Source: Moniliella sp. 'wahieum' (lineage: Eukaryota > Basidiomycota > Moniliellomycetes > Moniliellales > Moniliellaceae). From it: a stretch of DNA of 64,000 bases. The DNA is taken from contig RSEE01000006.1 of assembly GCA_003971905.1 (NCBI GenBank), positions 744,001 through 808,000 on the forward strand, in the 5' to 3' direction. Both the position numbers and the translations under genes were made by a program. Positions 4,166-38,402 of the stretch are shown here, one piece after another. How positions within the stretch are numbered: position 1 is the first letter of the stretch; each line of letters begins with the position of its first letter. Under the pieces are notes generated by a model, which did no database searches, had not been told where the DNA came from, and saw only the letters and a program-made list of their open reading frames with translations.

Positions 4166-4203
4166 GCGCTGAGCGCTGACGCGTGACGCGTGACGCGTGA
4201 CGC
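4166..4203. repeat. Heptamer array: (GCGCTGA)2 then (CGCGTGA)3
   Basis: Five adjacent 7-base units of two different sequences kept in the same register, followed by a partial unit. Both rotate to odd palindromes (GCT-G-AGC and CGT-G-ACG). It lies between the divergent cofilin and aldehyde dehydrogenase genes. Confidence 0.9.
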
Positions 4204-4352
4204 CCCCACGTGACGCTGGCAGGCAGGGTAGGCTACGCGTGTGGCCTCGTGTTGCTTCGGCCCCGGTCTGACGTCAGCGTCACCTCCACCCCATCCGCGG
4301 AGCTGCTGAGTCAGCCACAGGTGCTCACGTGATGCACGTGATGGCCGGGGGT

Positions 4353-4415
4353 GATCGATGATCGGTGGTCGATGGTGGATGGTGGATGGTGGATGGCCGA
4401 TGGTCGATGGTCGAT
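4353..4415. repeat. Drifting heptamer array, nine units
   Basis: Nine consecutive 7-mers in phase: GATCGAT, GATCGGT, GGTCGAT, three of GGTGGAT, GGCCGAT and two of GGTCGAT. Neighbouring units differ by one to three bases, so the array looks like stepwise drift from one heptamer to another. Confidence 0.9.
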
Positions 4416-4823
4416 GGCGCTGCCCCAGCGGTTTCTGAAGCGGGAGAGGTGATACACGCGATGCCCGCTGTCGCTGCGCTCGGCCGCCTCGGCCTGCCTC
4501 GGCTGGCCACGTCGACAGCGCAATGATTAATGGGGCAAGCAGCGCCAGCAGTCAGCAGCACTACTCAGTAGGCCGAGTGAGCTAGTGGAGGGTCGGTGCA
4601 AGTTGCCCGTGCGCAGCGCCCATCCGGCATCACGCATCATCACACATCGCATGTTCGTGCCCTGCCATTCACGTGCACGCGCCCGGCCCAAGCCTGCCCG
4701 GAAACGCAGCATGCCCCAGCGCGTCCTGCCGCCCCACGCCCCACGCCCCACCTGGGCCCGTCTTGCCGCTGAAAAGACCCGCCTCCGCACTGGCCTGCGT
4801 GCTGCTTCGGTGTCCCCCACACC

Positions 4824-6455
4824 ATGTCTGTCTCTGCTGCCGACCAAGCCCGCGACGATTCCGGCCTGATCTACCCCCTGTCGACCAGGTCCCCGCCATC
4901 GTCGACCGCCTGCGCACCACTTCCTCACCCACAAGACCCGCAATGTCGAGTACCGCAAGAACAGCCTCAAGAACCTGTGGTTCGGCTTGAACGAGCGCCG
5001 CGCGACCTCTGCGCGCTGTCCGTCTTGATCTCGGCCGCGAGGCCAACGACACCGAACCTCGAGCTCTCTGGCATCGAGAACGAGATTGTGGAAATGATTC
5101 GACCATCGACAAGTGGGCCGCGACGAGCGTGTCTGGCTGGTATGGCCTGGGTCACCCACGGCACGGTGATCCGCAAGGACCCCAAGGGTACCACTCTGGT
5201 CCTGTCGGCTTGGAACTACCCCCTGGCGCTCGCCCTCACCCCGTTCGCCAGGCCATTGCCGCAGGCAACACGGTGTTCTCAAGCCAAGTGAGGTGGCAGC
5301 CAACACGGCGCGCGCGAACTTAACCATCCTGGTTGAGAAGGTACCTTGACCCCGAGGCGTTTGTCGTGATCAATGGCGGCATCCCCGAGACGACCGCGGT
5401 CTGGATCAGCGCTTTGAGCACATTCTACACTGGATCGGGCACGTGGGCCGCATCATTCAGGAAAAGGCGCCAAGTGGCTGTGCCCGGTGACGCTCGAGTT
5501 GGGTGGCAAGTCGCCCGTTTGGGTCGACCCGAGCGCGGATCTGACCGTGCCGCCAACCGGATTCTGGGCAAGACGGCCAATGCAGGCAGACGTGCATCGC
5601 CCTGACTATGTCCTGACCACCCCCGAGATGTTCCCAAGCTGGTTGAGGCCATCAAGAAACCGACAAAAAGTTCTGGGCTAACGAGGGTGGACCAAAGAAA
5701 TCCCGCTACTACAGCAACATTGTCAACAAGAATCATGCCAGCCGTTTGGCCAAGGTCTTGTCCGAGACCAAGGGTACCATTGTCATTGGCGGAGAAACAG
5801 ACGTGGAAGCCAAGTTCATTGAGCCCACAGTCGTGACCAATGTCACTGGAGACGATTCGTTGATGCAGAGTGAGCTCTTTGGCCCTATCCTGCCTATCAT
5901 TTCCGTGCCGAATGTGGAGGCTGGGATTGATTTTATCAATTCGCGTGACCAGCCTTTGACCCTGTACGTGTTTGGCAACAAAAAGGTCGCGGACCAAGTT
6001 TTGTCCTGCACTCGGTCGGGCTCAGCAGTGGTAGGGGACGTGCTGCTCCAATTTGTCATTAGCGCGCTGCCATTTGGAGGAACAGGCCCTTCGGGTTCCG
6101 GCGCCTACCATGGCAAGGCTGGGTTTGATCTTTTCACCCACCAGCGCAGTCTACTACTCGCTCCGCACACTGGCGTACTCGGCAAGGTGGTGGAGATGAT
6201 TATGAGCGTGCGGTACCCGCCCGTGATGGCCAAAGACCTTTTGCTTTGGCCCTCCTGACGAAAAGGCCAGCTTTCTTCCGACGGCCTACGAACCCTCACG
6301 AACTGCCTGCCACTAAAGTAAGTCTGATGAACATGCATGTTACTAGTAACTCAAGGGAAGGATATTGACTTTACTTTGAACAGCGTCGCGGATTCAAGAA
6401 GCTTTTCCTTCTCATTGCTTTCTTGGCGGTTCTGCTCAAAGTTCTCCGGGGCTAA
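4824..6455 (+). CDS. HFD1: Fatty aldehyde dehydrogenase, membrane-anchored (frame disrupted)
   Basis: NAD-dependent oxidation of long-chain aldehydes at ER or peroxisomal membranes. The start ATG gives MSVSAADQARDDSG. Readable family landmarks across frames are LVLSAWNYPLALAL, the TLELGGKSPVWVD motif, the catalytic loop around AN-AGQTCIAPDYVL, SELFGPILPI and LPFGGTGPSG. A 66-base intron (6318-6383) splits off the last exon, which encodes RRGFKKLFLLIAFLAVLLKV, the C-terminal membrane anchor typical of Hfd1/FALDH. The exons total 1566 bases, close to family length. At least eight frame changes lie between 4850 and 5700, while 5700-6240 is open. Either local assembly quality is poor or the gene has decayed; conservation of the intron and anchor favours the former. 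Confidence 0.85.
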
Positions 6456-7721
6456 TCGGTCATCAGCGACACGCAACAGCCAGCACTTTCTGGGATTCTG
6501 CGTAGCCCCCTAATCTGCCCTCATTAGGAGGCAAATCAGTAAAATGGTGCCTTGGACTCCGCTTGCCTCCTTCTGCTCTATGCCTTGGGTCTTTTCCTTG
6601 AATCCATGTTTCCTTCGTCCGCACTTTTTTGAGATGAGTTAGGGGAGCCCTTCTCGAGATGTGGTTGGGGCAACCCAAAAGGCGGTGGAAGAAACTGTTG
6701 TCATCGGCTTGTGCGTTGACCAATTCTGCATAATGGTGTCTTGGGCCTTAGCTGGGAGTGTGTTGCATGCCAACGTCCGACGTGAAAAGCTGAGCGGATG
6801 GCCGAACGGGTTGAATACCACCGGGTGGCCCTTGCATCGGGATGCTAGCACCCTGCCCCCCACGCCTGGTGCTTGTTTGGTGGGGGCATACATCCCTACT
6901 TTCGGTGCAGCGTCACTGTCGAAGGCAGCAGAGCCGCCTGGCCCAGACCGACGCTTGGCTCTTGCTCGTATCCTGGCACCACAGCTGGGCTCACCAACGC
7001 CCAATCCGCACCCCATACAGACCCAGAAACGGACGCATCCTGTTCGTCACGCATGCTCCCCTCGCTCGCCCCTGGCGGGTTCCACACCGCAATACGATGG
7101 GGTTACCTTGATCGCGCTATAAGCACCCCCTCCCAACAATACATAGCGAGAGTCGGGAGATTGAATCGACGGAAGCGCACCGAGATCAGCCGGCGGGGCG
7201 CTACTCCCCTGCCGTAGTCCAAAGGGAAGAGATCGTATAGTGCCAGCAGAGGCGAGCAATGAAACGAAGGAAAAGGGGGAAAGGGAAAGGGAAAGGGGAG
7301 GAAGGGGCATGAAAGTGGATGGTCAAAGCAACGAGGGGGAAGGCATGTAAAAGGAGTGAGCAAAGGTAGGTGGGGTACAGTGACAATAGAAGCGAAGGCA
7401 ATGGAAGAAAGGAGTAGACAGTTTTGGGCGAGTAGAGAAAGGGCGACCTCTTCCCCAAGGAACAGGCGTCGGAATGGGGGATAGGAAGGGAACCACGATT
7501 TGTGTGGAGCCAAAGCCGGCACACCTCAAGGCCAGGTTCCAGGGGATGAGGCCAGGGGAAAGCAAGACGCCCAAAGACGGGGGGGTGGTATCGTGTCAAT
7601 GTAGTCTGCAAAAGGGGGTGGAAGCCAAAAGTGGGAATGGGATGTGGAGCACATCCACGCCGAAATGGTGAAACAACGTCAGGGCCTTAGACGATGAGAG
7701 GGAACAGGCAGCTACTCTTCC
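6456..7721. other. Intergenic between convergent genes
   Basis: 1.27 kb between the 3' ends of the aldehyde dehydrogenase and the minus-strand membrane protein. It includes a purine-rich stretch around 7260-7440 that gives long but low-complexity minus-strand frames. No supported gene. Confidence 0.5.
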
Positions 7722-9980
7722 TCATGGAACGTTGGCCTTGAACGGCCAAATCATGCATCTCACCCCGTCACGCGCCAATTCTTGGCGTAAGAGTTGAGCC
7801 AGCGTCGGGCGCGGTGCGGATGCTTGGTTGGCCGCCAGTTCTTCCGATGTTTCCCCGGAATTGTCCATGACCGAATGACCGTCGTGATCCCACCTTCTCC
7901 ATAGTGCGCGTGATGGGGGAGCCGGCACCGGACGCTTGTCGTACAGAGGCGAGCGCAGGGGAAGGAAGCGCATGCGCACTTTCGCCCCCCACAGCGGGCG
8001 AACCAGTCAAGATCGAGGAAGACTTGGCACGGATGCTGCCGTGTGGTGGACCATTGCCCGCTGCCCTGTGCTGGTTCCTGCGCCGGCGCACGCAGGAAGC
8101 AGGTGGGAGGTGGAAGCGTTGGCTGGGTCTTCGGATCCAGCAAACGAAGGTTGACGAAGTGCGTTGCGGAACGCATCCCATCCGGCTGGCCTCATCGGAC
8201 CAAAATGTGGGGTGAGGTTCTCCTCGGGCGGGGGCGCTGTGCTGCCATCTCTTGCTCTGGCCGTCGCAGCGCTTGCGCCTAACAAAGCAGTGGTCATCCC
8301 AGCTGACTCTTCGGTACCTGTCCCCATGGCAGGAGCGACAGGCGGACCGAGGCTGATGGGAGACCGGGATTCGTCCGACATGCTTGGTCCACTGGCTGCG
8401 CCGAGGATGGGCGATGTGGATCGCATGCTGGTTTGTCCCTGTCCCCGACCAGCAGCGGCCAAAGCTTGTTTGCGCCTCCATCGACGAGAACGAGGTAGGC
8501 GCCAACCAGCGCGAGGAGCAACGCCAGCGACCCAAACACAACAAAGCGATCGCGTAGCCGGGCAGATGATCCGAACCGGCTATGCCATTGAGCGTTCCAC
8601 CATTGGCCTCGGCGGTGGCCGTGGCGGTGATGATCTGACCATTGGACAGGGTAGTGGTTACAGTGGCTACCCCCGTCTCGGTTCCAGTGAAGCCATGACT
8701 GCGCAACGAAGACTCGATCGAGTTGCTGATCGATGAGATCACCGAAGCCGTCTCGGAGGATGGCCGAGATCGAAGAGAGGTAGGACGACAGAGCTGTCCC
8801 GGTCAACGTAGCTGTGCGAGAAGCGATCGAAGCAGACGCGACAGACGCCGAAGACCAGCCGATACCGACGCAGCGGAGAGGGACGAGATGTATCCTGATG
8901 ACAGGGACGCGAGAGAGGCAGAGGATAGGACGCGCGACGCAGAGGACAACGAGGCGGACGCCAGCGACGCAGATGACAACGATGCCAACGACGCAGAGGA
9001 TGCGGAACGCTGAGATGCGATCGATGAGGTAGTGCGGTCTCTAAAAAGCAGATGGTCAGTCATGAAGAATGGCCTGCGTCGCGCAGCCAAAGGAACCGGA
9101 CGAGCACTTACGGATTGCGGACCAAGTGGCAAGTCGACTAATGCCACTTTCCGTGCCGAGGCCAGAGGCAGTGATGACAAAGTAGAATGGCCACGAGATG
9201 TTTTGGTTGGGCTGGATGGTGGCGGCCTGGGGCAAATTCTGCCACCAGAGGTCGTTGGGGCTAAAGGAGATGCGGCCCAAATTGTTGTCGATGCTAGACC
9301 AACGGTCTGCAGCACGTCGCCATCGTCGCGGAAGAGATAAATGTCAACCGCCCCAATTTGCTGGAAGCGAGGGTAGTTGGAGTTCCAGATAAATTTGGAC
9401 CACTCCCCTGGACGACCTGGTGCCGGCAACGGGGTAGCAGCTGAGTACGTCGTTGCCAACCCAACATGTGTTTTGGGAGGAGGACTGGCGGCGGAGTACT
9501 TCCTCGGGTGGGGGTGGTGGCTCGCCTGGGAGCCTGAGGAGGAGCGGGAAGAAGAGGATGAGCGTTGGCGGCGAGATTGCTGAAGCATGCGCTTGACCTC
9601 CAGCACATCGGCATTGCTACGCGCGGCAAAGGGGCCGTAGAGCTGATGGGAGCTGTGGACCTGCGGGAGGGCGGCGAGACGGCCACGCGGTGTTCGATGC
9701 GTGAGCCATCATCAGGGTCGGCGAGGATGCGAGGCGCACGGGTGGCCGCCGGGAGCATGCCTGAGGTGCGGACTGATGGCATTGAGGGCGGCATAGAAGG
9801 CGGGGCTGGCGAGACAGACGGCAGCGCTGAGCTAGACAGCGAGCTGGGGGGAGGCGGGGTCGGGCTCAGACGCAGACTCCAGCTCGGGCCACAGTGGAGC
9901 TGACGCGCAGGGAGAAGGACGCAGGCGCAGACGGCAGCGCGATGGCGAGGGAAGGGCAGCAGGCGGGGCGCGCGCACGGC
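7722..9980 (-). CDS. Ser-rich single-pass cell-surface protein (frame disrupted)
   Basis: No known family assigned. Read from the minus strand, a hydrophobic Ala/Leu/Pro-rich N-terminus (about 9980-9900, possible signal peptide) precedes a globular part with WSKFIWNSNYPRFQQIGAVD, IYLFRDDGDVLQT, ISFSPNDLWWQNLP and NISWPFYFVITASGLG. A 5' donor GTAAGT near 9110 and an acceptor TTTTTAG near 9045 mark an intron. After it comes a striking Ser/Ala-rich stalk (SSASLASLSSASLAS...), a GTETGVATVTTTLSNGQ segment, one membrane helix (about 8560-8490, FGSLALLLALVGAYLVLV) and a cytosolic tail ending LARDGVRCMIWPFKANVP. This is the layout of fungal wall sensors and Skg6/Mid2-like proteins. At least four frame changes interrupt it, and the exact start is not resolved. 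Confidence 0.6.
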
Positions 9981-10070
9981 CGGAGGGTTGCCGTCGGTCC
10001 ACGCCAGGTTCTACAGTCCACGGCCAGGCGGAAGGCGGAGTCGTGCTAATCTCAGGCTGCAGGGGCGGCA

Positions 10071-10100
10071 GACGCTGTGCGACGCTGTGCGACGCTGTGC
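10071..10100. repeat. (GACGCTGTGC)3 tandem repeat
   Basis: Three perfect 10-base units, followed by the partial unit TGTGC. Confidence 0.9.
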
Positions 10101-10585
10101 TGTGCGCTGGGAGCGCATGCGGCCGCTGAGCACGCGCGCACACTGGCGCCCGGCCGCACAAGCTTTGCAGATCGCTGCATGCTGGCTCCGGGCCGCTCCA
10201 CCGGCACCACACCACTCTGGCCCATTGGCTGCTCCCGCGCGAGCAGGCGCGCTGCACGGGCTGCAAGGACAGGGGCAGCCATGCATGCGGCAGCGCACTC
10301 GCAGCACTCTGCCTCTGCCCCGCCGCGGAGCAGCGTGGGCGCGTTCGCCGCTCGGCGCCAGTACCCGCTCACTCGGCGCGCCAGGTGCTAGGGTTGCACT
10401 GCCGCCTGCCCCTTGCATTTTCTGCACAGGCAAGCTGACCGGTGACTGTCACCAATCAGGTCACCGGTGGTCATCGGTCACCCTGGTATGCGCGACTGAG
10501 CTCCTGCAGAACTTCAGCGCTCAGCCAGGCTTCGGCACGTTCTTGAACGTTCAGTTGAACGTTGCACTTGAACGTTGAATTTAAT

Positions 10586-10634
10586 GAAGCTTGAAGCTTG
10601 AAGCTTGAAGAATGATCGATGATCGGTGATCCCC
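10586..10634. repeat. Heptamer array: (GAAGCTT)3 then GATC-type units
   Basis: Three GAAGCTT units (odd palindrome CTT-G-AAG), a short spacer, then GATCGAT, GATCGGT and GATCCCC in 7-base register. Just upstream (10540-10580), TTGAACG occurs three times. It sits about 200 bases before the MCMBP start. Confidence 0.88.
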
Positions 10635-10831
10635 TGATTCGTTGTTCGGAAACTCGGCACTGCCCACGATTGGCTTCCCACAGCGCGCCACCGAAGGACT
10701 GTGCGGGCGTGGGTGACGCGGTGACGCGTCGCGACCGCGTGGCTGCGCGTGCACCCACCCGCCACCCGCACCTTCCACGTTTTTCCCGTTGCCTCTTGCC
10801 CAGCACCTTCCTGTCTCTCCGCTCTGCCAGC

Positions 10832-12398
10832 ATGGTTGTACCCACCGACACCGACTTTTCCATCTCTCTATCTGCCCCCTTCCATCGCCTGGATCAGCTG
10901 TTTGCCCAGGCAGTTGGGGACGATGACCAGGCACGAGTTAGCGCCGTTTCCTCCGCCTTTGCCGAGACCTTCAACACCCGCCCACGCATCGCCAAAATTC
11001 CCTCCTTGACTTCCCTCCCCCTTCCCAATGAGGCTGATGCCGGTCAGAGGCCAACCGTTGTGCGTTGGCGGTGCATGATTCAACAAAACTGCCGCGTCAG
11101 CCGAGATGTTCGTTCGCACTTTGCCCGAGGGAGGATGGGGTACTTTGGTGCAGCCGATTGGAGTGCTGCTTCGAACCCTACCGAATCCTCGGCAGATGCA
11201 GCCCAGCCCGACTATACCAATCTGGCCGAACGCAACGTTCTCTTTGGCGTATCGATCCCGGTGTGAAACGGCCTGGGACGCCGATGCTTGGGACCTCCCT
11301 GATCCTTCTACTCTGCCCCTTGCTCCCCCTGGGGTGCTGGCGCAAAAAACGCCTCTCGAAAAGGGTAGCGCTTCTGCTCTGCTCAAACTCTATGATAGTG
11401 CATTGGCCGATTCGGTCCGTGTGACCGACATTGTGGAGGTGGTGGGCATCCTGGGTATGAAAAGTATGCTGCCGTGAATGACTTTGAAGAACCTGTGGCC
11501 GACGCTCCTCTTGTTCAGTCAACGTCATTTTTCTCAACCAGACCCACTACCAAGCTCCCCAAACCTATCGACGTTGCTATTCCCGAGGATGTTGAGATCT
11601 TGGTTGACTACCTCACCTCTGTTCTCGAAGGAGACAAGGTTGCAGCTCGAATTGTCTTCTATGCACTTTTGGCGCACGTGCGCGGACAGCGCGCGGGTGT
11701 GACTTTGGGTGTGCTAAGCCTCAACTTGTCCGACTTGGCACCCGAGTCCACCGTCCCCCAAGCCCTCCCCAAGCCCTTTCCAACTCGTGCCGGCACTGGT
11801 GTGTCAACCCTTGTCCATCAACGCGTTGAATGCGGGGCGGTTCTTTCCCTCGTCCGACGGAGATGTGTTGCGTGCGGGTCGGCTCCAGCTCGCCAAGGGA
11901 ACTACTCTGCTTATCGACGAAACCCAACTGCAAGAAGGGAAATTGGCAGATACGGGGTGTGCAATGTGCGCTCATTGAACCATGCTTCAGACTCACAAGT
12001 TGGGCTATGCCTTCCCCTTTACTGAGTATGAGTTCGATGGACGTCTCTACCCTCGTCCTCTCCCGTACCAAGAGCATGCTTCCTACTGATGTGCGCGTCG
12101 TCCACCGCCCTGCCCCTGTTCAGCTCAGACCCCAACCCTCATCAGCTTACTGCCTGGCGGACTCATTCTCTCGGCGCGTGAGGCGCCCTGCCGGCCCTGC
12201 CGGAAGCTCTGGCAAAGCAGATTACCGAGGAATTTGTTGCAGCGCGGGGCAGAGCCCCAAGCCTCTGGCCAGGAAGATCTGCAGCGGAGGTTGAACCTCG
12301 CCCGCTTGGCGGCGCTGGCCAAGGGGTCGGAGCTGGACGAGCCGCTGTGGCGCTCGATTGTGCAGCTGGACGAGGAGATCCAAGCTCGCCTGGTGTAG
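10832..12398 (+). CDS. MCMBP: MCM complex-binding protein (frame disrupted)
   Basis: Nuclear protein that binds MCM subunits and helps load or unload the replicative helicase. The start ATG gives MVVPTDTDFSIS. Family landmarks in order are the N-terminal RWRCMIQQN segment, MFVRTLPEGGWG, the NLAERNVLFGVSIPV segment with the following W-D, a central VAINDFE-like segment (YAAVNDFEEP), a helical PEDVEILVDYLTSVLEGDKVAA region followed by LLAHVRGQRAGVTLG, and a C-terminal RLNLARLAALAKGSELDEP helix ending in EIQARLV. No intron was recognised. At least five frame changes are needed to read all segments, so the exact protein cannot be given. Identification rests on the ordered blocks. Confidence 0.8.
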
Positions 12399-12582
12399 GC
12401 AGCGGCTGGAGCAATCGTATTCTTGCTACTTAGCAGTTACTAGGTGCTGGTGGCCCTAGATCATGAAAGTTTCAGTGAATAGAAGCCTTCGCCACCGCCA
12501 TCTACTCTGGCCGAGATGCATGGAATTGAGCAGGCAATCAGCAAACGCTAAATCACCCTACACCACCACTCCTGAGCTCGCC

Positions 12583-13055
12583 ATGGAGATTGGGCACCAC
12601 TGCGATCTGGTCTCCTGCAAGCAGCTCAGCTTTTTGCCCATCAAATGTCCTTGTGTGGGAACACGTTCTGCGAACGGCATGGCAAGCAGGACGATCATGC
12701 CTGCCCCGCCGGCCGTGCCACCCTTTCTCCAGCGGCGCAGAGGGCGGGGGCAGAGCAAGGACGCAAGCGCTGCGCCAAGGCCGGATGTAAGAACACGTCG
12801 CTCGCCCTTCACACCAACAAACCCACCAATGGATTTACCCATATCGCCCCCCAATGTGCCCAGTGTCACCTCTCTTTCTGTCCTGTCCATGCTCCCCCGA
12901 TCAAACACCAGTGCACAGCCCCCCTCCCCCCCACGTTGGGAGATGCCAAACGCGCCCAGTACGCTGCGGAGGATGCAAAGCGCGATGCTAAGCGGATACA
13001 GGCACGTGAACTTCTCGCCAAGCGGGGTTTCAAGAAGAAGACGAATCCCGCCTAG
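12583..13055 (+). CDS. AN1-type zinc-finger protein
   Basis: Small ZFAND2/Cuz1-like protein with two AN1 fingers, a family linked to the proteasome and Cdc48. The start gives MEIGHHCDLVSCKQLSFLP; the first finger continues CxxCxxxFCERHGKQDDHAC and the second runs from CAKAGCKNTS through CAQCHLSFCPVHAPPIKHQC. The C-terminus is a basic helix (AKRDAKRIQARELLAKRGFKK). The region is 473 bases; one base seems missing near 12648 (C-S-L-C of the first finger), and restoring it gives 157 residues. It follows MCMBP on the same strand by 185 bases. Confidence 0.88.
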
Positions 13056-17563: not shown

Positions 17564-17758
17564 TTTGTCATCTCTGTGTCCCTCTCTGTCTCTGTCTCTG
17601 TCTCCCCGTCTCCCCTACCTTCACCGTTGAGGCCCTGCTTGGCCATTGCTCTGCTCAACGTTTCGCTATTGTGTGCCCTACTACTAGTATGCTTACCCGC
17701 TTGGGCTTGTATGGACATGAAACAAGCATGAAATCAATTTGGTACGGGTTCAACCTAT

Positions 17759-17786
17759 TCAACGTTGAACGTTCGTTCAACGTTCT
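17759..17786. repeat. TTCAACG/TTGAACG heptamer cluster
   Basis: TTCAACG-TTGAACG-TTCG-TTCAACG-TTC: units built on the odd palindrome GTT-G-AAC and its complement. Confidence 0.8.
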
Positions 17787-18420: not shown

Positions 18421-18470
18421 CGATCACCTCGATCACCATCGATCAACGATCACCGATCACCGGACGATCA
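18421..18470. repeat. CGATCAC heptamer cluster
   Basis: CGATCAC or close variants occur six times, partly back to back (CGATCAC-CTCGATCACC... CGATCAA-CGATCAC-CGATCAC). Confidence 0.8.
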
Positions 18471-18587
18471 TCGCTGGTCGCGAGTCGCGTGGCGCCAGTC
18501 ACCCGTCGCTAGTCTTGGGGGGGCGTGCGGATTGGACCAGTGTTAGGTGTAAGACCTTAGACTTCGGTAAAGAGCCCAGGCCGACCC

Positions 18588-18604
18588 TTAGGCCTTAGGC
18601 CTTA
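18588..18604. repeat. (TTAGGCC)2 heptamers
   Basis: Two perfect units plus TTA; the unit rotates to the odd palindrome CCT-T-AGG. The same array recurs at 38247. Confidence 0.85.
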
Positions 18605-25136: not shown

Positions 25137-26168
25137 GACGGGGGGGTGCGTAGAAAAGGGGGAGTGGGAGGGGAGACGACCAAATCTGGTGGTGGTGGGA
25201 ATTTAAGATGATGGAGCCACGCCACAGTTGGTGCTGGAGGCGGGGGCGGGTGGGAAGAACAATTGACCTGCTTTAGCTGAAGCAGTCAATTGGTCCACGG
25301 CATCTTCCTAAATCTACAGGTGACGTTAACGAAATGGACATAATGTTGACAACCGGTCGAAGCCTGAAGCAGCAGTGGCACGGCCTTGGGCCTCCCGGCC
25401 CACGCAGCTCTCCAGATACTCTGCACAGGACCCGTGTCACCGCGCTTACTTGGCTCGCTATTTAATCTCTTGATCTAAGCGCGATGTCTGGCCCAGCGTC
25501 AGTGTCGTGCTGGGTATTTTTGGTTTGCGAGGCGATTGAACGGTGACCCGTCCGGTGACGTGACGGTGACCAGAGTTACCAGTGACTAGTGACTAGAGTG
25601 ACTAGTGACTAAGATATTATGTGTGATGATTAATGACTACTGTCGTAGTGGCTGGTGGCTTAGCTAGTGGTCGCAGTGATCAATGATATTGATAAGCGAT
25701 GGTGCGGGGCGCTTCTCTGCTGTAGCAAGGCTACAAGCCAGACATCTGCTTCTTCGGACACTGTCATCAAGCTTCATACGCCGTATCTGCACCTGTCCGC
25801 TCTTTTTGACACAACAGTCTCTCCGCATTTTTTCTTTCGGTGGCTATCAACTATCAGCCCTCGAGCATCGGTCACTCAGCCTGATGCATGGTGAAGCCGG
25901 TGAAGCGAAGTGCGGCACACTTGCGCCTGTCCGTCCGCACGGCTCAGTGTCGAGTATCCCCCCTCTTCAGTGTCTCAACCGAGGACCTGGTCCGTGTTGG
26001 ATTTGTGGACAGGAAACTGCCGAAGCAAGGGAGGCCGCGGTCCCACTCCTCGCCTCTCTGCGTGCGCCACCTATTTAACTGTCCTGCAGTGTCTCCTTGC
26101 TTCTTTCCTACAGTTCTCCCATCGTCCATTCACTGACCCCAATCCACTCGACTTCCAGACTACGCCCC
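25137..26168. promoter_or_regulatory. Shared divergent promoter, formaldehyde dehydrogenase / amine oxidase
   Basis: 1.03 kb between two divergent starts. It carries the (GTGACTA) array at 25582-25611 and related GGTGACC/GTGACGTGACGGTGACC elements just before it (25540-25572). Co-regulation is inferred from position and linked metabolism only. Confidence 0.45.
25582..25611. repeat. (GTGACTA)2-GA-(GTGACTA)2 heptamers
   Basis: Four perfect copies in two pairs; the unit rotates to AGT-G-ACT. It is located in the divergent promoter of the formaldehyde dehydrogenase and amine oxidase. Confidence 0.92.
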
Positions 26169-28530: not shown

Positions 28531-28812
28531 GTTCTCATGAGCGGTCCTGTTTTGGTTGTGGCTACTGCTTCTCCCCTTGCTTCCTCCCCCGGTCCCAGCG
28601 TTTTATGTGAAAATCCATGCGAAATGATACGCTCTGTTTATCAATCCCATCCCCTCTTCGTGGTTGGTGCGTTTGCACTGCAGATGGAGGGAACAATGAA
28701 CCCTCTGCCTCAACATCTGCTGCAGGGAACTGGCCTAGTAGGCATACGTTGGGATATGTGCAGGTGCGTGCAGTGAACAATAGTAACAACGAGTGTGTGC
28801 CCCGTTCTCAGC

Positions 28813-28826
28813 GTTGAACGTTGAAC
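28813..28826. repeat. (GTTGAAC)2 heptamers
   Basis: Two perfect odd-palindromic units (GTT-G-AAC). Confidence 0.85.
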
Positions 28827-28984
28827 GTGTGTTGTTCAACCCTCAACGTCTCAATGTTGAGCCTCAACGCGCACCCATGGCGCCAGGCTCGGTGCATGCT
28901 GACTGGCTCAGCGCCCAGCTCTGGGCGCTCAGCCTCAGCGCCCTCAGTGCCTCAACGGAGATGGATGGTCCTACATCGGTCACC

Positions 28985-29002
28985 TTCAAGCTTCAAGCTT
29001 CA
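28985..29002. repeat. (TTCAAGC)2 heptamers
   Basis: Two units plus TTCA, the reverse complement of the GAAGCTT family found at 10586 and 38144. Confidence 0.85.
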
Positions 29003-29983
29003 TCTGTTTTCTTGCGAATCTTGCCTCATCGATCATCAGGCCTCAGGCCTTGATGAGCTTGATGCCTAGATAGGCCGTGTATAGTTTGACGGGCGAGGAG
29101 ATGGGTCACCGGTCACCAGGCCACCGGACAAGCCCGGTCGCTCCTTGTCCCGTCTTGAGCGCCCTGAGAGTGAGTGATCGATTCCCTGCCGTTTTTGTGT
29201 CCGAAGAGAGAGCGCCTGGAAGTGTTGCGCAAAACTCGTCCAGCAGCCCACCCACCCCTAGTTTGATTACCCTCCTGACCCTAGCGCAATACCCCTGTGT
29301 ACCCCGGGACCGGGACCGGGGGACCCCTCTTGACGCATCGCACCCGCCCCCAACAGAGTGCCCTCCTCCCGCTCATAGCTCATCACTGATCGATCATCAA
29401 ACATCCTTAATCATAGCAAACGTTGCCAAGTTGCATACGGCGCGTATATCCTGGTGAGCCACCCGGTCGTTTCCGGTACCTTCGGGACCACCCGGGAACG
29501 TACCCCTGCTGGAGCTGCCCACGGTGGTCTGCTACCTGTTCTCTATAGAAGACCAGCAGCAGGTATGCCCCCTCTAATGCGCTCGCCGCCGGCGTTAGTA
29601 TGTCTGAGACATCGGATGGCCGCATGGAATTAGCGTTAGCGCGCACAAAGTTTGTACCTCACGCACCACACCGCTGATTCTCGGCAGCTGGCCGGCCACA
29701 AAGCAGCTCAGGGCGCTCAGGGCCAGTCTCGGAAGCGCGAACACCTCGCGATATTTTTTACACCAAACTTAACAGGTTTAACAGGGGCCGCAGGTGGCAA
29801 TGCACATGACGTGACGCTGTGCCTGTGGTCTCTTTTACCTGCTATCCCTGGATCCTCGTGTAATAAATAGCACCTGGCTCTTGATTGAGCATTTTGAGTC
29901 AGCTCCATATCTGCCCAAAACAACCCAGCCTCTTTCTCATTCCTCTCTCATCCTCGTCCATATCTGTGCTTGCCTTCGTCGAG

Positions 29984-32234
29984 ATGTTCTCTCGTCGATT
30001 CGGAAAATCTTTCAAACATGTTAACCGAGTGCCAAGTCCTCCCAGGGAAAAGGCCCCGATCATCCAGTTACGCGACACCACCAACAGCTCTCACCCGAGC
30101 TCTACGGAATCGCTCCCGCGAGTGAGCGGACATTTGCAACGGAGGCGAAGCATACTCCTCCTAGTAAAGAGACCGATTTCCCACCCAGCCGGCTGCCTTA
30201 TGGCCCTTCGCGCCGCGCTCGTCCCGCCAAGTCTGACTTTGGTACTCCCTCGGTCGAACGCACGGTCCACCCCAGTAACCCCCCCGGCTCTCCGCCTTTG
30301 CCCGTGCTCTATGTAAGTAAGCGTGGAGGTGAAGTGCTAGAAGACCCGATCAGCAACTATGGCGCCGCCCACAGCCAGGCCGAGCGTGATTCCCTTGGCT
30401 TGAGCCCCTTCTTGCCTTCAAGTGTTCATACCTTGGCGACGCAAGTCGAGCGGGCGTACAACCAGCTCAAACTACGTCAGCGGATTGCCCAGTATGGTGA
30501 CGATGACGATGGCAACATCATGCAGTACACGTTCCTTCGCTCGTTGAAAGACCAGAACTCGATTCTGTTCTACGCACTACTCCAGCGCAACCTGAAGGAA
30601 ACTCTGCGTGTAATCTACACACCCATCGTGGGCACCGCGATTCAAAACTATTCTCGCATTTTCCGTCGTCCGGATGGCACCTTCCTATCTTACCCCGCGT
30701 ATAAGAATGCCATCGACGCTGCCCGGGGCGACCGCGAAGCAGGACGCAAGTATATTCAGGATGCCATCACACACTACGGACACCTTGGAAAAGAAGATAT
30801 TGATGTCTTGACCTGCACAGACAGTGAGGGCATCCTTGGGATTGGTGATCAAGGTTCGTGTTCCGCTTCATTGTTTTGCTCCTTGTTGGAAACCCACGAC
30901 TGACTGCTTTTCGCTCTACAGGAGTTGGCGGCATCAATATTGCCATTGGCAAGAACACAATTTACGCCGTCGGGGGCGGGTTCGATCCCCAGCGCACCCT
31001 TAGTATCGGTTTGGATGTGGGAACCAACAATGCCAGTATGTTGGCCGATCCCTTATACCTTGGATGGCGCAACCCGCGTATCCGTGGGGAAGAGTACGAT
31101 GCATTTGTGGATGACTACGTTGGCGTCGCGAGCAAGTGCTTCCCTCATGCCCTTCTTCATTTTGAGGACTTTGGCACTCAAAATGCCCACCGTCTAATGC
31201 TCAAGTACCGCCCCACTTCAACTTTTTCGGAGATATGAGCAGGTGCGTATAGTGCATGATGTGGTTTGATATGGGTGGATTCTTTCTTTGCTAACGGGTG
31301 CATTTTCGGATGACAACAGGGTACAGCAGCAGTAACACTTGCTGCTGTTCTTTCAGCTGTCAAAGTAACCAAAACGACTCTCAAGGACCAGCGTTTCGTC
31401 ATCTTTGGGGCGGGTACGGCCGGTCTGGGCATCGCATCTCAGATTCGGGATGCTATTGCCATCCGCCAAGGTTTAAGCAAGGAAGAAGCAGTCAAGAGAC
31501 TTTGGCTAATCGACCGGGATGGACTGCTGGTCAAGGGTGAGGTGGAGATGCGGGACGCGCAAATCCCCTTTGCTCGCTCAAAGGAAGATGTAGCGAACTG
31601 GCCTGCTCCCAATGAGGGTCACGGCTTCCGCCTGCTTGATGTGGTGAAGGAGGTCAAGCCTACCATCTTGATCGGGGTCTGGACAAGGGGGTGCCTTCAC
31701 AGAGTCGGTGGTAAAGTCCATGTCCGAGGGATGTGAGCGCCCAACGATCCTTCCCTTGTCTAATCCTTCACGCTTATCGGAAGCGCGTCCGGACGAAATC
31801 TGCCAGTGGAGCAGGGAAAAGCACTTGTCGCCACGGGATCTCCCTTTCCCCCTGTTCCAATGCCTGGTTCAGAAAAGATGTACAAGGTGGCCGAATCAAA
31901 CAATGCGCTTGGATTCCCTGGCTTGGCGGGGGGTACAATTCTCGCTCGCTCACCTCGTTTGACGGACAAAATGATCATTGCTGGTGTTGACGCAATTGCT
32001 TCACTCAGCCCCGCGCTCAAAGACCCGGATGATGCTTTGTTACCTGACCTGACGGACATGCGCAACGTCAGCATGAAGGTGGCAGCGTCAGTCGCCTTAG
32101 CGGCGAAGAAAGAGGGCTTGGCTACCGTTGCTCTTCCCGATACAGTTGAGGAGTTGGAAGAGTTGGCTCGGCACCGGGCCTGGGAGCCTCTCTATCGTGA
32201 ACTACGGCCTTTGGAAGACGGCCCAGAGGAGTGA
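29984..32234 (+). CDS. MAE1: NAD(P)-dependent malic enzyme
   Basis: Oxidative decarboxylation of malate to pyruvate. The start ATG gives MFSRRFGKSFKHVNRVP, a basic N-terminus compatible with mitochondrial import. Family landmarks: LKDQNSILFYALLQRN, YTPIVGTAIQNYS (usual YTPTVGEAC), TDSEGILGIGDQG, GLDVGTNNASMLADPLYLG, EDFGTQNAHRLMLKYR, the nucleotide-binding FGAGTAGLGIA, and LSNPSRLSEA near the end. Introns at 30854-30921 and 31243-31319. Frame changes occur near 30080, 31217 (a missing C before TTCAACTTTTTC), 31690 and 31800. It ends ...LRPLEDGPEE. Cofactor preference (NAD or NADP) cannot be read with certainty. Confidence 0.92.
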
Positions 32235-33057
32235 GAGTGGTAACGAGTGAATTTACGGTCCACACTCTTAATGGCACAACCTCTTTATCTGTTCTCTACC
32301 CTCACGTTGGAGGACCACTTCGGTATACCACACGCTTGTTTGAGTAATGGGGGGCTATACCCCGTTTTGTGTATGTCTGCACCAGCTTTTGGCTTCGTGC
32401 CTCTCGCTTGGACATAATTATGACTGTGATTATCAACATCATTGCTATTAAGTGTCGATAATTGATTGTACAGGGACAAAGAGACGCTGGGGTTCCTAGT
32501 GGGTACCCAGGACATTCCCGCGGTAGATGGTCCGACGTGTCGCGTGTTGCTATATAATTGCCCGATTGATTTTGTTCCCTATGTCCGACGTGTCATGACG
32601 TGGAAGGCAAAGGGGGTTATCAGAAATATTTCAACATCACGCATGATGCATGACATGTGGCAGGCCACGGTGACCGGTGACGGTGACCTACCTGCTTCGT
32701 CCGCCACTTGCAAGCATCGCCAGCGCCGTGTTGCCTTTTGTAGCTCCACACCTCCACCTCCGGCCCGTCTTCCACCGCTCGTTTCGCAATGCCACCAGTC
32801 ACCAATGCCACCATCTCAGAAGACAATTTGGCTCAACTTCAAAAGCTACCAATTGGCCATATGCGTCGACCGTCTTGCCCGCAACCAGCTCAAGTCCAGC
32901 AACTGAGACGATAGCCACTTCCACATCCACTATCACACCCTCCTTCTACACGGCGCATTTCGGCTACGGCGTCTTCTGCCGTTTCAGCGCTCCGAGCCAC
33001 TCCCATATCAAGTCAGCCAGCCACACCGGCCACTGCTTTGCCGCTGGTACTACCGGC
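32235..33057. other. Region between malic enzyme and MPDU1
   Basis: 0.82 kb. Plus-strand frames at 32660-33050 begin near the MPDU1 gene and may be 5' UTR or an unrecognised upstream exon. GGTGACCGGTGACGGTGACC-like repeats occur near 32670. Confidence 0.4.
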
Positions 33058-33980
33058 ATGGCAGTCTGCCCTACAAACCATTACTCACAACATTCCTTAT
33101 TTTGAGGGCCCCAGCGGAGGCGATCATTGGCGAGGTGTGTTTTTCTTCCTGTATCTCAGCGCAATCCAACTAACGTATCGCTGTTTTCAGGAGTGCTACA
33201 CGACTTGATTTACGATGCGGATCTAACTTCAACTCACTGCATTCGCCTGTCCATTTCCAAGGGTTTGGGGCTAGGAATTGTGGTGTTCGGTTCGATTATG
33301 AAAGTTCCACAGATCTCCAAGATCATTCGCGGTCGTTCGGCTCGGGGCATCAGCCTCAGCATGTACGTTCTCGACGGTACTTGCCTACACCATCAGCTTG
33401 GCCTATGCCGTGCGAAAAAGGATCCCCTTTAGCACGTATGGGGAGAATGCTAGTCTCACCGTGCAAAGTATGTTCGTGTCATGCCATTGTTTGGTTATCC
33501 TCTGACGAGCAATTTTCCCTCTCTTCCAGATATGGCCATCACTCTGTTAATCATGCCTACGCACCTATCTGCTGATTTGAACAAGGAAGCTCGTCAAAGG
33601 CGAGTCGTGGTCGCCCTGCCCTCATGGTGGCGCTTTCCATATTTTTGTTCACACCTGCTTTGTGTGCCCCTGATTCCTTTCTTTTCTTCAAGCCCTTACG
33701 ATTCCCATCTCCCTGATCAGCAAGTGCCCCAGATGGTGGAACTACACACGCGAAAGGCACCTGGGCAGCTGAGCGCGATCGTGTTTTTGCCCAATTGGCG
33801 GGGACAATGGCTCGAGTTTTCACTACCTTGACTGAAACGAACGACTCCCTCCTCTTCTGGGGATTCGCTCTGGCCACGGTATTTAACGCCGTCATATTCG
33901 TCCAGCTGCTAATGTACTGGAATGGAAACGAGCGCACCATGATCATCGGTCTTGATGGCAAACCCCAAAAACTTGATTGA
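33058..33980 (+). CDS. MPDU1: Mannose-P-dolichol utilization protein, PQ-loop family
   Basis: ER membrane protein needed for use of dolichol-phosphate-mannose and -glucose. Landmarks: IIGE/ECYTT split by an intron (33135-33190), the first PQ loop ISKGLGLGIVVFGSIMKVPQ with RSARGISLSMYVL, YTISLAYAVRKRIPFSTYGE, a second intron (33468-33529) inside LTVQ/NMAITLLI, then GQLSAI, GTMARVFTTLTETNDSLLFW, and NAVIFVQLLMYWN before a short polar tail ending KPQKLD. Four or so frame changes are required. The start is uncertain: the ATG at 33058 is the nearest upstream candidate but is not in frame with the following exon as given. Confidence 0.85.
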
Positions 33981-34775
33981 GCATGACCTTAACCCCGCCC
34001 GCACCAGATAATGGACTTTTCAATGGACATTTTCTTGAACTACCCCGTATTCCTTGATTTGCATGCTATATGCTAAGACAACAGATCGCTCAGTTATCCC
34101 CATATTTTCTCTCAACGTATGTCTGATGGGAACAGGCCCAGCAACTAATGCCAGATGAATCTATGATGAATGCCAATAAAAGCAGATCTTTATGGCATTG
34201 ATGAATGGGGAGCAGGGGATGGTTAAGATGATTAAGGGTACAATAAGTACAGATGACATACTAGGCCAGTATATGAGTCTGCTCGAAGTAGGCAATGGGC
34301 TCTGTGATGCACGCGATCAGTGATGATGAAAGGAGATAAAAGAGAAAGTGAAGGGGGAGAGAGGATGGGATGTGGGGGCAGTGATAAACTCGCGTTTCTC
34401 CATGTCAAAAAACAGGTCGCATGTGCATCAACAGGGCCTCGGCAGAGGCATATTACAGCGATATGTGGCGGTCCGACGCGGGTGAAATGAAGAGAGAGAC
34501 AGCATACCAGCGGCAGCACGGCTAGGCCTGTTCCCACCCTTCAGCGAGATCCATAAGTGAAGGGACGTGTGTCGAATAAAAGTCGAAATCGATCGTTTGG
34601 GGACACAGGCTACCCCCGTATGGGCATCGCATTCCTGAAAAAACGGTGTGAAGTCGTGCCGCACACTTTTTGTTTGATGGATGCGGTCCTCGATGTCGGA
34701 CTCAACCTGAGATGCTTCGGTTTGATCTTGTCGGATCCAGCAGAGAAGTCGTTGGCATCGCCATGAGCAGCCATA
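33981..34775. other. Intergenic between convergent genes
   Basis: 0.8 kb between MPDU1 and the second MFS gene; presumably both 3' UTRs. Nothing else recognised. Confidence 0.5.
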
Positions 34776-36527
34776 TTATTCTCTTGCATTCTCTTCAGCA
34801 TCGAATCCAATTGAGGTAGCCATTTTAGAGTGTGCTCTGATGCGATCGCCAAAGAAAAGGAGAATAAAGGGAACGGCACCCAGGAGCGTCGCAATCCCGC
34901 GAGGATGGAGGTCATGTTCTGCGGCTTCATACCAGCGTACGCGTAAACGCCAAACAACGGGAAGACACCTGTGGGAGAGAAATGGAGAGAGGTCAGTCAT
35001 ATATCCCACACGCATTCGACCATGACAACGCTGAGAGAATGCAATAACATACCAGCCCACATGTTGCGAAGGAAAGAGCAAGCAGCGAGTGCGCTGGAAG
35101 CGTACTGTCGTAACAGTCAGAAAGGTACTCCCAGTCGAATCGTAGATGAGAAATGTCCCAGCTTGGCAAATCACAAGCCCACAATGCTACGACGGGGGTG
35201 AACTGATTTGATGCAGGTACGGGCGTACACCACAATCCGATAGGGTACAATACCCCCCACGCAACCATAGTATAGACGTGTCAGGGTTGACAGGCCATCT
35301 CGGCTACGGAACGGTCGCGACGAAAGAGGGACTCTTGAGGCAGGTGCAGGATCCAGGATAGGGATGCTCCAAGACCAACACCAAGAAGCACGAGGGATGA
35401 TTGGAGACTATTCCAACCATATGCGTCATTGAAAGCCACACCGACGGAAGTGAACATGAGGAAGAGCATGCCCCAGGAAAGGCGGCCCAGATGGAGAAGG
35501 CGGTGGTGATAGGTTCAAACATGAGCATGCGGAACGGACGGGTGCAAGATGGAGCATGGCCGCTTTGAGGGAAGACGATCCTCTTCCAGACGCGAGACAT
35601 ACAGGACGTTAATGCCCTGCTCGTCTGCCTCGCTTGCAAACTTGTTAATCGGCGACGGAGTAATACATTGGCCCGGGTCTCTTTGATCGTCGAAAAAATA
35701 AAAATACCATAGGCTGCAGATAGAATGGCTGATAACCAAATGGTCCACTTCCATCGCCATTCACTTCCGTGCCCGGAGATGATGGCGTTTACTGATGATT
35801 GGAGCAACAGATTGGCCCATGAAGTTGAACCACAAGTATACACTCATGGAATACCACGCTCATGCTGCGCCCAAAGGTCAGCAACCGAGCCGCCGACCAT
35901 ACAGTTTCCAGCGGAGCAAGCAATGCCTTGGAAAAAACGAGTGATAACCAGACCCTCCACGTTGTACGAAAGGGCTTGAGGGATGAAGAGGATAACGTAA
36001 AGGATGACCGAGGCCTGAGCAGAACAGTAGTATTAGCGTTGGCGAAGGAGCAGAAGAAGAGAGATGGTAAGAAAGGGAGGGGGTAAGTATCTTACACAGT
36101 AGAGTGGAACACGGCCCACAGTTTCAGAGAGCGGGGTGATAAACATGTCGGCGGTACTATTGGAGGACTGAAGAGTGCAGTTGCCAAGCAAGATCACAAC
36201 TTTGGCGACGTGATACTTTTTGCCCAACAGGCCAGCCAGGGGAGAGTATGCCGAGGCGCAAAGCGCAGTGGTGAATGCCCACATGGAGGCCAGCAAAGTG
36301 AGGTACCAGCGCTTGGAGTTACTCCAGTTCTGTGGGTTGCCGGCATCGTATGGACGCTCCCAGTCGACATAAATGATTTGGCGGCCATCAGGGGCACGCT
36401 GGCCAGAGGCGGCGGTGGCCACCTCGCCGCTGGAGCCGTCATCGACAACTGCGTCCGCGGTGGCCACCTTGGTTTGATCAACCTGAGCCTTCTTCAGGCC
36501 AGACCTGGGAAACGGTTGGAATGCCAT
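34776..36527 (-). CDS. MFS transporter, DHA1 drug/polyamine type (frame disrupted)
   Basis: Twelve-TM plasma-membrane exporter-like protein. The N-terminus is cytosolic (MAFQPFPRSGLKK...) and carries the family signature VDWERPYDAGNPQNWSNSKR just before TM1 (WYLTLLASMWAFTTALCASAY); loop 2-3 has PLSETVGRVPLY. The first intron is 36095-36015. The following exon reads SVILYVILFIPQALS and FFQGIACSAGNCMVGGSVAD. Later helices include WTIWLSAILSAAYGIFIF, the loop signature PFRMLMFEPITTAFSIW, GMLFLMFTSVGVAFNDAYGW and VGGVLYPIGLW. A last intron (35053-34969) precedes GVFPLFGVYAYAGMKPQNM, then LLGAVPFILLFFGDRIRAHSK and ...DAEENARE. Several frame changes lie in the middle. Confidence 0.85.
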
Positions 36528-36918
36528 TTCTGCAGGTTTTTAGGCGTCCACAGGGTCGGGCACAATGTTGGAGGAGGCGAAGGGCGTGAGGATTTATATG
36601 AGGGAGTTCAAGAGGGGCGTATTCAGAAAAGGAGAAGGGGGAGGCCTGAGCTTGTGCTTTTAATATACTACTAGCCTAGTATCCACCCACATGCGTCAAA
36701 GGACGGTGGTTACACTCAGTACTCAGTTACTCACTGTACGCTTGCAGTATACTTAGTCTGAGATCTGTGAGTCTCACAGCTCAGCCTGCGACATGCTCAC
36801 ATCATCAGTGCTGGCTGTGAGGCTGCGCTCAATGAGTCTGAGTAGTAGTACGTTTAGTGACTAGCGACTATAGTGAATCTGGAAGCTTGAAGGACGCAGG
36901 TTGGTGCCGCAGCAGAGA

Positions 36919-36969
36919 GTCACTAGTCAAGCTAGTCACTAGTCACTAGTCAAGCTTCAAGCTTCAAGC
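36919..36969. repeat. Heptamer array switching GTCACTA to GCTTCAA units
   Basis: In 7-base register: GTCACTA, GTCAAGC, TAGTCAC, TAGTCAC, TAGTCAA, GCTTCAA, GCTTCAA. Two different odd-palindrome families (AGT-C-ACT and CTT-C-AAG) are joined in phase through hybrid units. Confidence 0.9.
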
Positions 36970-37233
36970 GGCATTGCTTCAGAGGTCTGGGGGCGTAGGC
37001 CATTCGCGTAAAAGATGTGATGGATGGGACAGCATGTTCTCAGCGGGCCACATTTTTCGGTCACCAAGGTCATACACGTGGACAAATGCCACGCCGTCAC
37101 AGATCCTCACCGACATTCGCGTGCGCGTGACCGCACCTGAACCTAGTAAAGCTCCTAAGGCCGGCCTAAGGCCTAAAGGGCCTAGGCCCTGAGAGCCTCT
37201 GCGCGTGAGCACCTGAGCCTTTGAAGCATGACC

Positions 37234-37289
37234 GGTAAACGGTAAACGGTAAACGGTAAACGGTAACCGGTGACCAGTAACCCGTAACG
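37234..37289. repeat. Eight in-phase heptamers, GGTAAAC type
   Basis: Four GGTAAAC units, then GGTAACC, GGTGACC, AGTAACC and CGTAACG without any gap. Confidence 0.93.
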
Positions 37290-38143
37290 GATTGTGACTT
37301 GTTCGTCCCAGACTATTGTGCCGTCTTGCCACGATCTGCATCCATCGATCCATCGCCGTGCCCGTTCGGGAAATATGTAGAGCGCTCAGGCTGAGCGCCC
37401 CGTGTGGCGAGCCTCTTCAACGTTGAGATCTGAGAGCCGCTGGGTATGATGAATGATGTGCGCATATACTTTTTTCCCCTATATAGATCTCTCTCTGGCA
37501 GATACTATCAGTAGGTCTACACGTGTTATGCGCTGCTACCTCTGCTCTGCTTAATAATCCTCTTCCCAGTGATAGGTCACACAACCACACCAGATGAGAG
37601 GCGCTGTGTGTGAGTTGCGGGGCTCCGGCACCGGTAGCTTTTCAGCACATATAAGGCACACACACATGTACCTCCGCTCCCATCACATGTCGCACAGCCA
37701 TTATCTGCATCATCCCTGTGTGTGGTTTGTTGAAGATCGGTACGCCCGTTATGGTTCCTGGCATTAGTACTTAGTTAGTACTGAGTCTTGTCAGCGATCT
37801 TAATCATTAATCATTCTTCATTTTAACCAATCTCAGCAAGCTTCCGGCCGAGGTGAAAAAACGTGGAAGGTTGCCGTCGAACGGTGGCCGTACGGCTGCC
37901 GGTGACCCGCGGTGATCTGAGTTTGGACCTCCGGGGGAGAGATGCTCGATGGTGGAAGGCGATTTACAGCCAGGGTGTTACATGTTACAGAGGCGTTGCA
38001 TGCTTTTATTACGCGCTAACGCCGCGTAACGCGCAGCGCGTAACGGCTACATGTTACACGTTACATGTTGCGCTTCGCGTTCAAACGTTAATAAAAGCTT
38101 AAGCACTTACGCGCTCATACTGTAAGTACTCAGTACGAAGTAT

Positions 38144-38206
38144 GAAGCTTGAAGCTTGAAGCTTGAAGCTTGAAGCTTGAAGCTTGAAGCTTGAAGCTTG
38201 AAGCAC
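38144..38206. repeat. (GAAGCTT)8 heptamer array
   Basis: Eight perfect units followed by GAAGCAC; the longest perfect heptamer array in the window. Each junction creates an AAGCTT palindrome and each unit an odd CTT-G-AAG palindrome, so either strand can fold on itself in many registers. Confidence 0.96.
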
Positions 38207-38246
38207 ATATCCACGACACACAACATCGCCCGCCACCGCGCCACCC

Positions 38247-38263
38247 TTAGGCCTTAGGCCTTA
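38247..38263. repeat. (TTAGGCC)2 heptamers
   Basis: Same unit and copy number as at 18588-18604, plus a trailing TTA. Confidence 0.85.
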
Positions 38264-38367
38264 TAACATCACCGATGCAAGCAGTTCTTCTGTCCGCGCA
38301 ATGTCTCAGGAACACCGCACTCCCCACATATACGGGCACGAGACACCGGATGGGCGTCTTTTGAACG

Positions 38368-38402
38368 TTGACTAGTGACGCGTGACGCGTGACGCGTGAC
38401 GG
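38368..38402. repeat. TTGACTA then (GTGACGC)3 then GTGACGG
   Basis: Five 7-base units in phase, joining the AGT-G-ACT-like and CGT-G-ACG families. Same core unit as at 4180-4200. Confidence 0.92.

Follow-up and report, generated by a model that had tools for sequence, protein, structure and literature searches.

We analyzed a 64,000-nucleotide stretch of the genome of the basidiomycete Moniliella sp. 'wahieum' (contig RSEE01000006.1, positions 744,001 to 808,000, hereafter the window), which contains many short arrays of different tandem repeats, all with a period of seven bases, together with further sequence sampled from the same genome. These repeats look like repair scars at sites of the form T-N-A (TNA) rather than a code, and the word "code", used for them in a preliminary description of the window, is not supported. 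From the sequence statistics presented below, their anatomy is very probably that of serial, templated 7-bp insertion scars, in which two copies of the same TNA enclose a dinucleotide from one flank joined to its own reverse complement. An intact site would read V'U'-TNA-XY (any V, U, N, X and Y; a prime denotes the complement), and an event centered on T-N-A would add 7 bp to yield either V'U'-TNA-XYY'X'-TNA-XY or V'U'-TNA-UVV'U'-TNA-XY, the two forms that stand out in these statistics.

The period-7 excess and the TNA rule

The source genome comprises 69.5 Mb in 223 contigs. The initial 264-kb sample consisted of the window and 20 stretches of 10 kb taken at fixed places; five stretches, then 10 kb adjoining one of them, and then 12 kb were added later. 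Period counts refer to the 264 kb, the scan of trinucleotides and spacers to 314 kb, and overall totals to 336 kb. Counting exact tandem runs with at least 9 repeated bases, and using 20 dinucleotide shuffles of the window as background, we found 20 runs of period 7 in the window compared with 0.05 in shuffles, 10 of period 6 (0.55 in shuffles) and 8 of period 9 (0.2 in shuffles). In the 264-kb sample, periods 5, 6, 7, 8 and 9 were represented by 13, 40, 80, 14 and 27 runs, respectively, placing period 7 ahead in the very comparison that the preliminary description had proposed as a check. The units of 56 of the 80 period-7 runs rotate to T-R-A followed by a 4-base palindrome; one further unit is another odd palindrome and 23 are of neither kind. 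Genome-wide, three tandem copies of AGTGACT occur 144+151 times, and the same pattern read backwards occurs 0 times.

Direct reading at all 15 array coordinates in the window, together with a repeat listing, confirmed that the period-7 arrays reported there are real, and 12 of the 15 hold at least one exact TNA-palindrome-TNA step. The other three (17759, 18421 and 37234) hold none: inverted copies of AACGTT without a clean period of 7 occur at 17759, CGATCAC recurs at mixed 9/7 spacing at 18421, and the 34-bp run of TAAACGG at 37234 adjoins TAACCGG; the array between 37231 and 37288 may be a mutated TAA-ccgg array. The symmetry originally described as an odd palindrome of three bases, a center base and three complementary bases is present, and is captured more sharply as T-N-A plus any of the 16 possible 4-base palindromes, each of which was found with TGA.

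Across the 336 kb, the four bases between two TNAs with equal N are palindromic in 300 of 578 pairs, where about 18.5 would be expected. When all 64 trinucleotides were scanned with spacers of 2, 4, 6 and 8 bases for the share of palindromic spacers (1 in 16 by chance), the sole standouts were TGA/TCA (245 of 461 palindromic) and TAA/TTA (48 of 99) at spacer 4, with CAT/ATG ranking next at that spacer (44 of 365). The control cores ANT (6/238), CNG (25/527) and GNC (38/691) were not above 1 in 16. Odd palindromes with arms of length 6 were likewise enriched around TnA, with 105 compared with 16.0 in local shuffles, whereas the other centers gave 22 vs 18.4 (AnT), 32 vs 25.6 (CnG) and 43 vs 28.6 (GnC). 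The earlier claim that the shared period and symmetry exceed what ordinary microsatellites would show is thus supported by both the period counts and these scans. The palindromic share was 293 of 560 for pairs with equal N and 69 of 347 for those with unequal N; the excess resides mainly in pairs with identical TNAs, as if one TNA had been copied from the other. A reading in terms of codons, with TGA and TAA as stops in three frames, was rejected, given that TCA and TTA on the opposite strand are equally common and that the sites are depleted in coding-like DNA.

Flanking templates, reconstructed targets and array growth

The extension of the period-7 match at 293 palindromic sites peaks at (0,2), with 37 sites, and (2,0), with 35, and (0,0) accounts for 15; that is, the match extends exactly two bases on one side only, and run lengths therefore tend to 7n+5. 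Isolated 12-mers of the right-templated form number 110, and among 59 longer runs 15 are of length 19 and 17 show the two predicted end phases. At 252 of the 293 sites, the spacer equals the dinucleotide of the left or right flank plus its reverse complement, forming palindromic joints that resemble P nucleotides. At 261 discriminating sites, where left and right flanks call for different bases in each of the four spacer positions, 46 spacers were right-templated and 47 left-templated (93 of 261 in all), compared with about 1 per label by chance, and 8 were mixed, one flank supplying the outer two letters and the opposite flank the inner two (7 and 1 for the two labels). The 4929 control sites, whose outer letters are not those of TNA, included 37 right-templated and 34 left-templated spacers (about 19 expected per label), and the two mixed labels together gave 31 vs 38 expected. 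Plain 7-bp duplications showed the opposite distribution, with 12 of the 261 discriminating TNA sites (11.8 times the expectation of 1/256) and 436 of the 4929 control sites (22.6 times expectation). Plain duplication is thus common at other cores, and the mirrored kind is special to TNA.

Two simpler routes were rejected. A plain 7-bp duplication later "corrected" to a palindrome does not fit, as non-palindromic duplications at TNA are not above background, and a footprint with a 3-bp duplication of TNA alone could, we reason, not copy bases past the TNA, so that 7 bp are needed.

To examine what preceded insertion, the target was reconstructed by undoing the event. Across positions -13 to +13 of 79 events without an array neighbor, only the T and A of TNA carry much information, with a weak excess of G/C at +3 (60/79) and of G at -5 (36/79); G or C stands at N in 139 of the 169 events overall, a share that is 74% among background TNAs. 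Complementarity between bases at distances of two and three from N is at chance level (19 and 20 of the 79 events, respectively). With no strong consensus or symmetry past TNA, the palindrome appears to be made rather than chosen: judged by these statistics, it is written by the event and not recognized by it, the target being a near-arbitrary NNTNANN. The preliminary description, in suggesting a process that favors odd palindromes, had cause and effect reversed. The same reconstruction removes its first suggestion, that the arrays are binding sites for dimeric or multi-finger proteins. Their mostly non-coding location and clustering would suit such sites, but all 16 palindromes occur with TGA, the targets share little past TNA, and no binding model predicts that the palindrome consists of the neighboring dinucleotide and its mirror image or that both copies need the same N; we consider this explanation the least credible of all.

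Longer arrays appear to grow by repetition of the same step. The 223 TNA-palindrome chains comprise 177 with a single step, 139 of which match a flank, and 46 with two to eight steps. In 13 mixed chains, the first palindrome fits the left flank in 11 and the last fits the right flank in 11, with both ends fitting in 10, where chance would give 1 in 16 per end. A simulation in which each event takes a random TNA and a random flank, with no slippage and no fitted parameter, yielded 13.5 mixed chains compared with the 13 seen (14.7 or 15.3 when 8 or 15% of events were mixed-template). Broken down by length, unevenly, the share of mixed chains is 4/29 for two steps, 6/11 for three, 2/3 for four, 1/2 for five and 0/1 for eight. 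The fit shows that the arrays can be described as serial 7-bp insertion scars in which new TNA copies are hit again, giving uniform arrays or, if the template comes from the other flank, mixed ones. Uniform arrays need no slippage on this account, although some may have contributed to the eight-step array at 38143.

This bears directly on ordinary microsatellite expansion, in which 7-base units would multiply with the help of hairpins formed by self-complementary units. In its favor are uniform arrays, the longest with nine copies (38143), and the existence of other period-7 units (23 of 80 runs). However, mixed arrays that keep one phase and have ends set by their flanks, the predominance of single-step chains, the restriction to TNA cores and the background level of plain 7-bp duplications at TNA all speak against it, and we regard it as very unlikely.

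The excess of scars amounts to 0.84 per kb over the 336 kb, which extrapolates to about 58,000 genome-wide, an estimate slightly inflated by the window, which was picked for its arrays and contributes 69 of the 300 pairs in 64 kb. Sites are clustered, with 241 of 336 one-kb bins empty and four bins holding at least 12 sites. The statement that none of the arrays lies in coding exons holds roughly: a crude codon-usage mask, trained on 1533 codons with two of the six training pieces lacking an open frame, assigns 15/299 sites to coding-like DNA (0.005 per TNA vs 0.029 elsewhere), or 61/299 at a looser threshold (0.0085 vs 0.0424). A gain of 7 bp shifts the reading frame, and selection therefore suffices to explain the depletion.

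A candidate mechanism and its alternatives

An arbitrary dinucleotide directly abutting its own reverse complement is the signature of off-center hairpin opening, that is, of P nucleotides; a dimeric enzyme would be expected to have a target in which, as here, T and A are placed symmetrically around N. By analogy with the P nucleotides of hAT and RAG systems, we give an even chance to hairpin and P-nucleotide chemistry carried out by a transposase-type enzyme. Such an enzyme would cut with a 7-bp stagger, causing duplication of the target NNTNANN, and turn the flanking ends into hairpins; the hairpins would be nicked two bases from the tip, giving 4-nt palindromic 3' overhangs XYY'X' and UVV'U'; and end joining would ligate one overhang to the TNA of the other end and remove the second, resulting in the two main products. 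Repair of a mismatched overlap could generate the rare mixed product. Hairpin opening about 2 nt from the tip is a property of Artemis. Among the three causes proposed in the preliminary description (binding sites, a replication or repair process, or products of an unknown element), the second comes nearest to this scheme.

Several observations weigh against this interpretation. Neither flank was matched at 41 of 293 palindromic sites, compared with about 18 expected by chance. In a random held-out set of four stretches (22 kb) fetched after the rule had been formed, two of which also entered the templating, target and array statistics, 7 of 18 TNA pairs were palindromic, a set too small to stand alone, and 4 of these 7 matched a flank; among its nine discriminating sites, 0 were purely right- or left-templated and 1 was mixed. 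The newest 12 kb contributed one site, which fits neither flank. Scans for inverted ends with duplications of 4-10 bp, for paired NNTNANN and for repeat families did not turn up any element bearing a 7-bp NNTNANN duplication in about 314-324 kb, although elements without such ends could escape them. Genome searches for Dimer_Tnp_hAT (PF05699), hAT-like RNase H (PF14372), KDZ and Plavaka returned 0 matches, but no control genome matched these four either, whereas MULE and DDE_Tnp_4, also with 0 matches, were both found in control genomes; RVT_1 gave 71 matches, which shows that domain searches work in this genome. No empty allele was seen, with no site falling in the alignable DNA of the homeologous stretch described below; alignments of paralogous copies lacked a 7-bp gap bearing the TNA signature, and shorter repeat families showed no evident 7-bp duplication. 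Finally, the hairpin-derived footprints left by Ac/Ds excision in Candida albicans were varied, with 28 kinds among 128 in the accessible part of that report, whereas a single fixed geometry prevails here (PMC5873905). Around four array loci outside the selected center (12 kb), by comparison, 36 of 63 pairs were palindromic and 34 of the 36 matched a flank; discriminating sites in the same surroundings (n=19) included 4 right-templated, 1 left-templated and 1 plain duplication, and the control cores were palindromic in 5/17 (CNG), 0/22 (GNC) and 0/8 (ANT) cases, none of them flank-matched.

The missing transposon is one reason to consider a host enzyme acting without one. A domesticated transposase or other nuclease that cuts TNA sites in non-coding DNA, followed by mending along a fixed route that adds seven bases, would leave the same approximately 58,000 scars with no living transposon involved. 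It would then be a one-way insertion mutator, of a type for which the literature searches revealed no description. This would account for the failure to find a transposon despite about 300 sites in 336 kb, for the six unmatched DNA-transposase families set against 71 reverse transcriptase matches, and for a uniform product with the same place hit repeatedly. Conversely, no such enzyme was identified, and a transposon that is extinct, rare or devoid of inverted ends would escape the scans; we view the host-enzyme explanation as possible but doubtful.

Template switching or end joining of the polymerase-theta type, in which two bases of the opposite strand are copied before return through a one-base A-to-T match, appears improbable to us. 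It would yield both right- and left-templated products and requires the complementary T and A that TNA indeed provides. However, any complementary pair around N should then serve, which is contradicted by the ANT, CNG and GNC counts given above, and the copied length would not be fixed at two, yet spacers of 2 and 6 show nothing.

Read as insertion scars, a class of heptamer repeats gains a mechanistic origin, and the repeats become a readable record, most sites telling both the sequence before insertion and the flank that served as template. At +7 bp per event, such insertions would also make non-coding DNA grow in one direction only. If the enzyme is found, the genome would supply natural repair products by the tens of thousands from what appear to be hairpin-type breaks, with less variation than in the transposon footprints compared here, and a test of hairpin opening in fungi.

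Features of the window and comparison with known systems

The scars and arrays read in the window are collected in the table. Downstream (3') of the scar at 4352..4363, period-7 units resembling TGG-TCGA, outside the TNA rule, continue up to 4417.

Table. Scars, arrays and exceptions in the window (positions counted from its first base).
Position	Strand	Feature	Remark
4168..4202	+	mixed array gc TGA-gcgc TGA-cgcg x3 TGA cg	flanks matched by the palindromes at both ends
4352..4363	+	single scar TGATCGATGATC	TGA-TCGA-TGA at start of array 4353
10583..10610	+	array ct TGA-agct x3 TGA ag	
10613..10624	+	single scar TGATCGATGATC	
18586..18604	.	array cc TTA-ggcc x2 TTA	left-templated
25581..25611	+	two TGA-ctag-TGA scars	separation 16 bp
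28812..28828	+	single scar around TGA-acgt-TGA	
28984..29002	-	array TCA-agct x2 TCA	
29026..29047	-	adjoining scars TCA-tcga-TCA and TCA-ggcc-TCA	
36918..36969	-	mixed arrays, TCA-ctag and TCA-agct steps	one phase
37231..37288	+	TAAACGG period-7 array	exception; unit non-palindromic
37764..37775	.	single scar TTAGTACTTAGT	
37978..37987	.	single step TTA-catg-TTA	only 13 bp of period 7 at 37977
38143..38204	+	uniform array of nine TGA, spaced by eight agct	longest one in the window
38245..38263	.	array cc TTA-ggcc x2 TTA	
38362..38401	+	mixed array TGA-acgt TGA-ctag TGA-cgcg x3 TGA cg	flank matched at the right end but not at the left
42598..42609	+	mixed-template step cc TGA-cgcg-TGA cc	outer and inner pairs drawn from opposite flanks

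Positions 20367-42672 of the window are homeologous to, and inverted relative to, contig C20:195001-215000, with the same gene order in aligned blocks; identity is 70-85% in aligned blocks of at least 42 bp, and the intergenic DNA is unalignable. The genome also contains ten malic-enzyme-like copies, which, taken with this homeology, suggest that it is duplicated or hybrid. Its gene content and the interruption of genes by introns point to a fungus, probably a basidiomycete. At about 43711-44010, the window contains a long near-perfect inverted repeat, with arms starting TGTCACCGAATGACTAAGCTCGCTCC, that is perhaps a foldback element. Elsewhere in the genome, copies of a repeat roughly 860 bp long share about 90-92% identity (L018:8975-9829, L024:414-1281 and L033:3561-4434); the repeat has the ends TGTCACGGGC...GCCCGTGACA and 5-bp direct repeats that are exact in two copies and match at 4/5 in the third, like a solo long terminal repeat. 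In L034:1-2430, the 18S match covers model positions 127-1831 over a length of 2126 bp, which suggests an insertion; only 89 bp separate 18S and 5.8S in L034, and several 18S copies sit at contig ends.

Literature searches, with subscription papers largely outside their reach, found no published description of this pattern. A scan of IMG/VR with 3.7 copies of TGAAGCT matched 9 contigs, whereas the pattern in reverse matched 1 and an array of TGATGCA matched 0. The nine contigs (L037-L045; 34-41% GC) carry period-7 (GCTTGAA)n arrays with 4-7 palindromic TNA pairs each, which we take to be largely the array itself and do not count as the same process; this is likely an unrelated bacterial heptamer repeat.

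The nearest relatives of the scars are transposon footprints. As far as the available portion of the source covers them, hAT (Ac/Ds) footprints share the short duplications, the hairpin ends processed by end joining and the palindromic P-nucleotide joints, ascribed to hairpins in C. albicans (PMC5873905). In the available material, they usually follow an 8-bp duplication, unlike the 7-bp gain and TNA target seen here, where no element or hAT domain was found. The hAT7 and Kyakuja transposons of basidiomycetes, in the part of the work available, make 7-bp target duplications, the length deduced here from scars, and belong to the same fungal division (PMC12730594); the difference is that no hAT or KDZ domain matched here, as none did in any control genome. 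The short, intergenic and palindromic (A)n/(T)n microsatellites of Fusarium mitochondria, proposed to be mobile, are similar in outline, but as presented in the accessible text have homopolymer arms, are mitochondrial and follow no heptamer or TNA rule (PMC7218506).

The P nucleotides of V(D)J recombination are mirror copies of a few end bases produced when hairpins are opened off-center, often by 2 nt. They vary in length and arise at programmed loci, whereas here the length is fixed at 2 nt over tens of thousands of sites. In microsatellites the unit is independent of the flanks, whereas here it follows them, as seen in both the templating and the ends of mixed arrays. Protein-binding arrays share sequence specificity beyond their spacing, in contrast to the heptamer scars, which use all 16 palindromes and have little in common past TNA.

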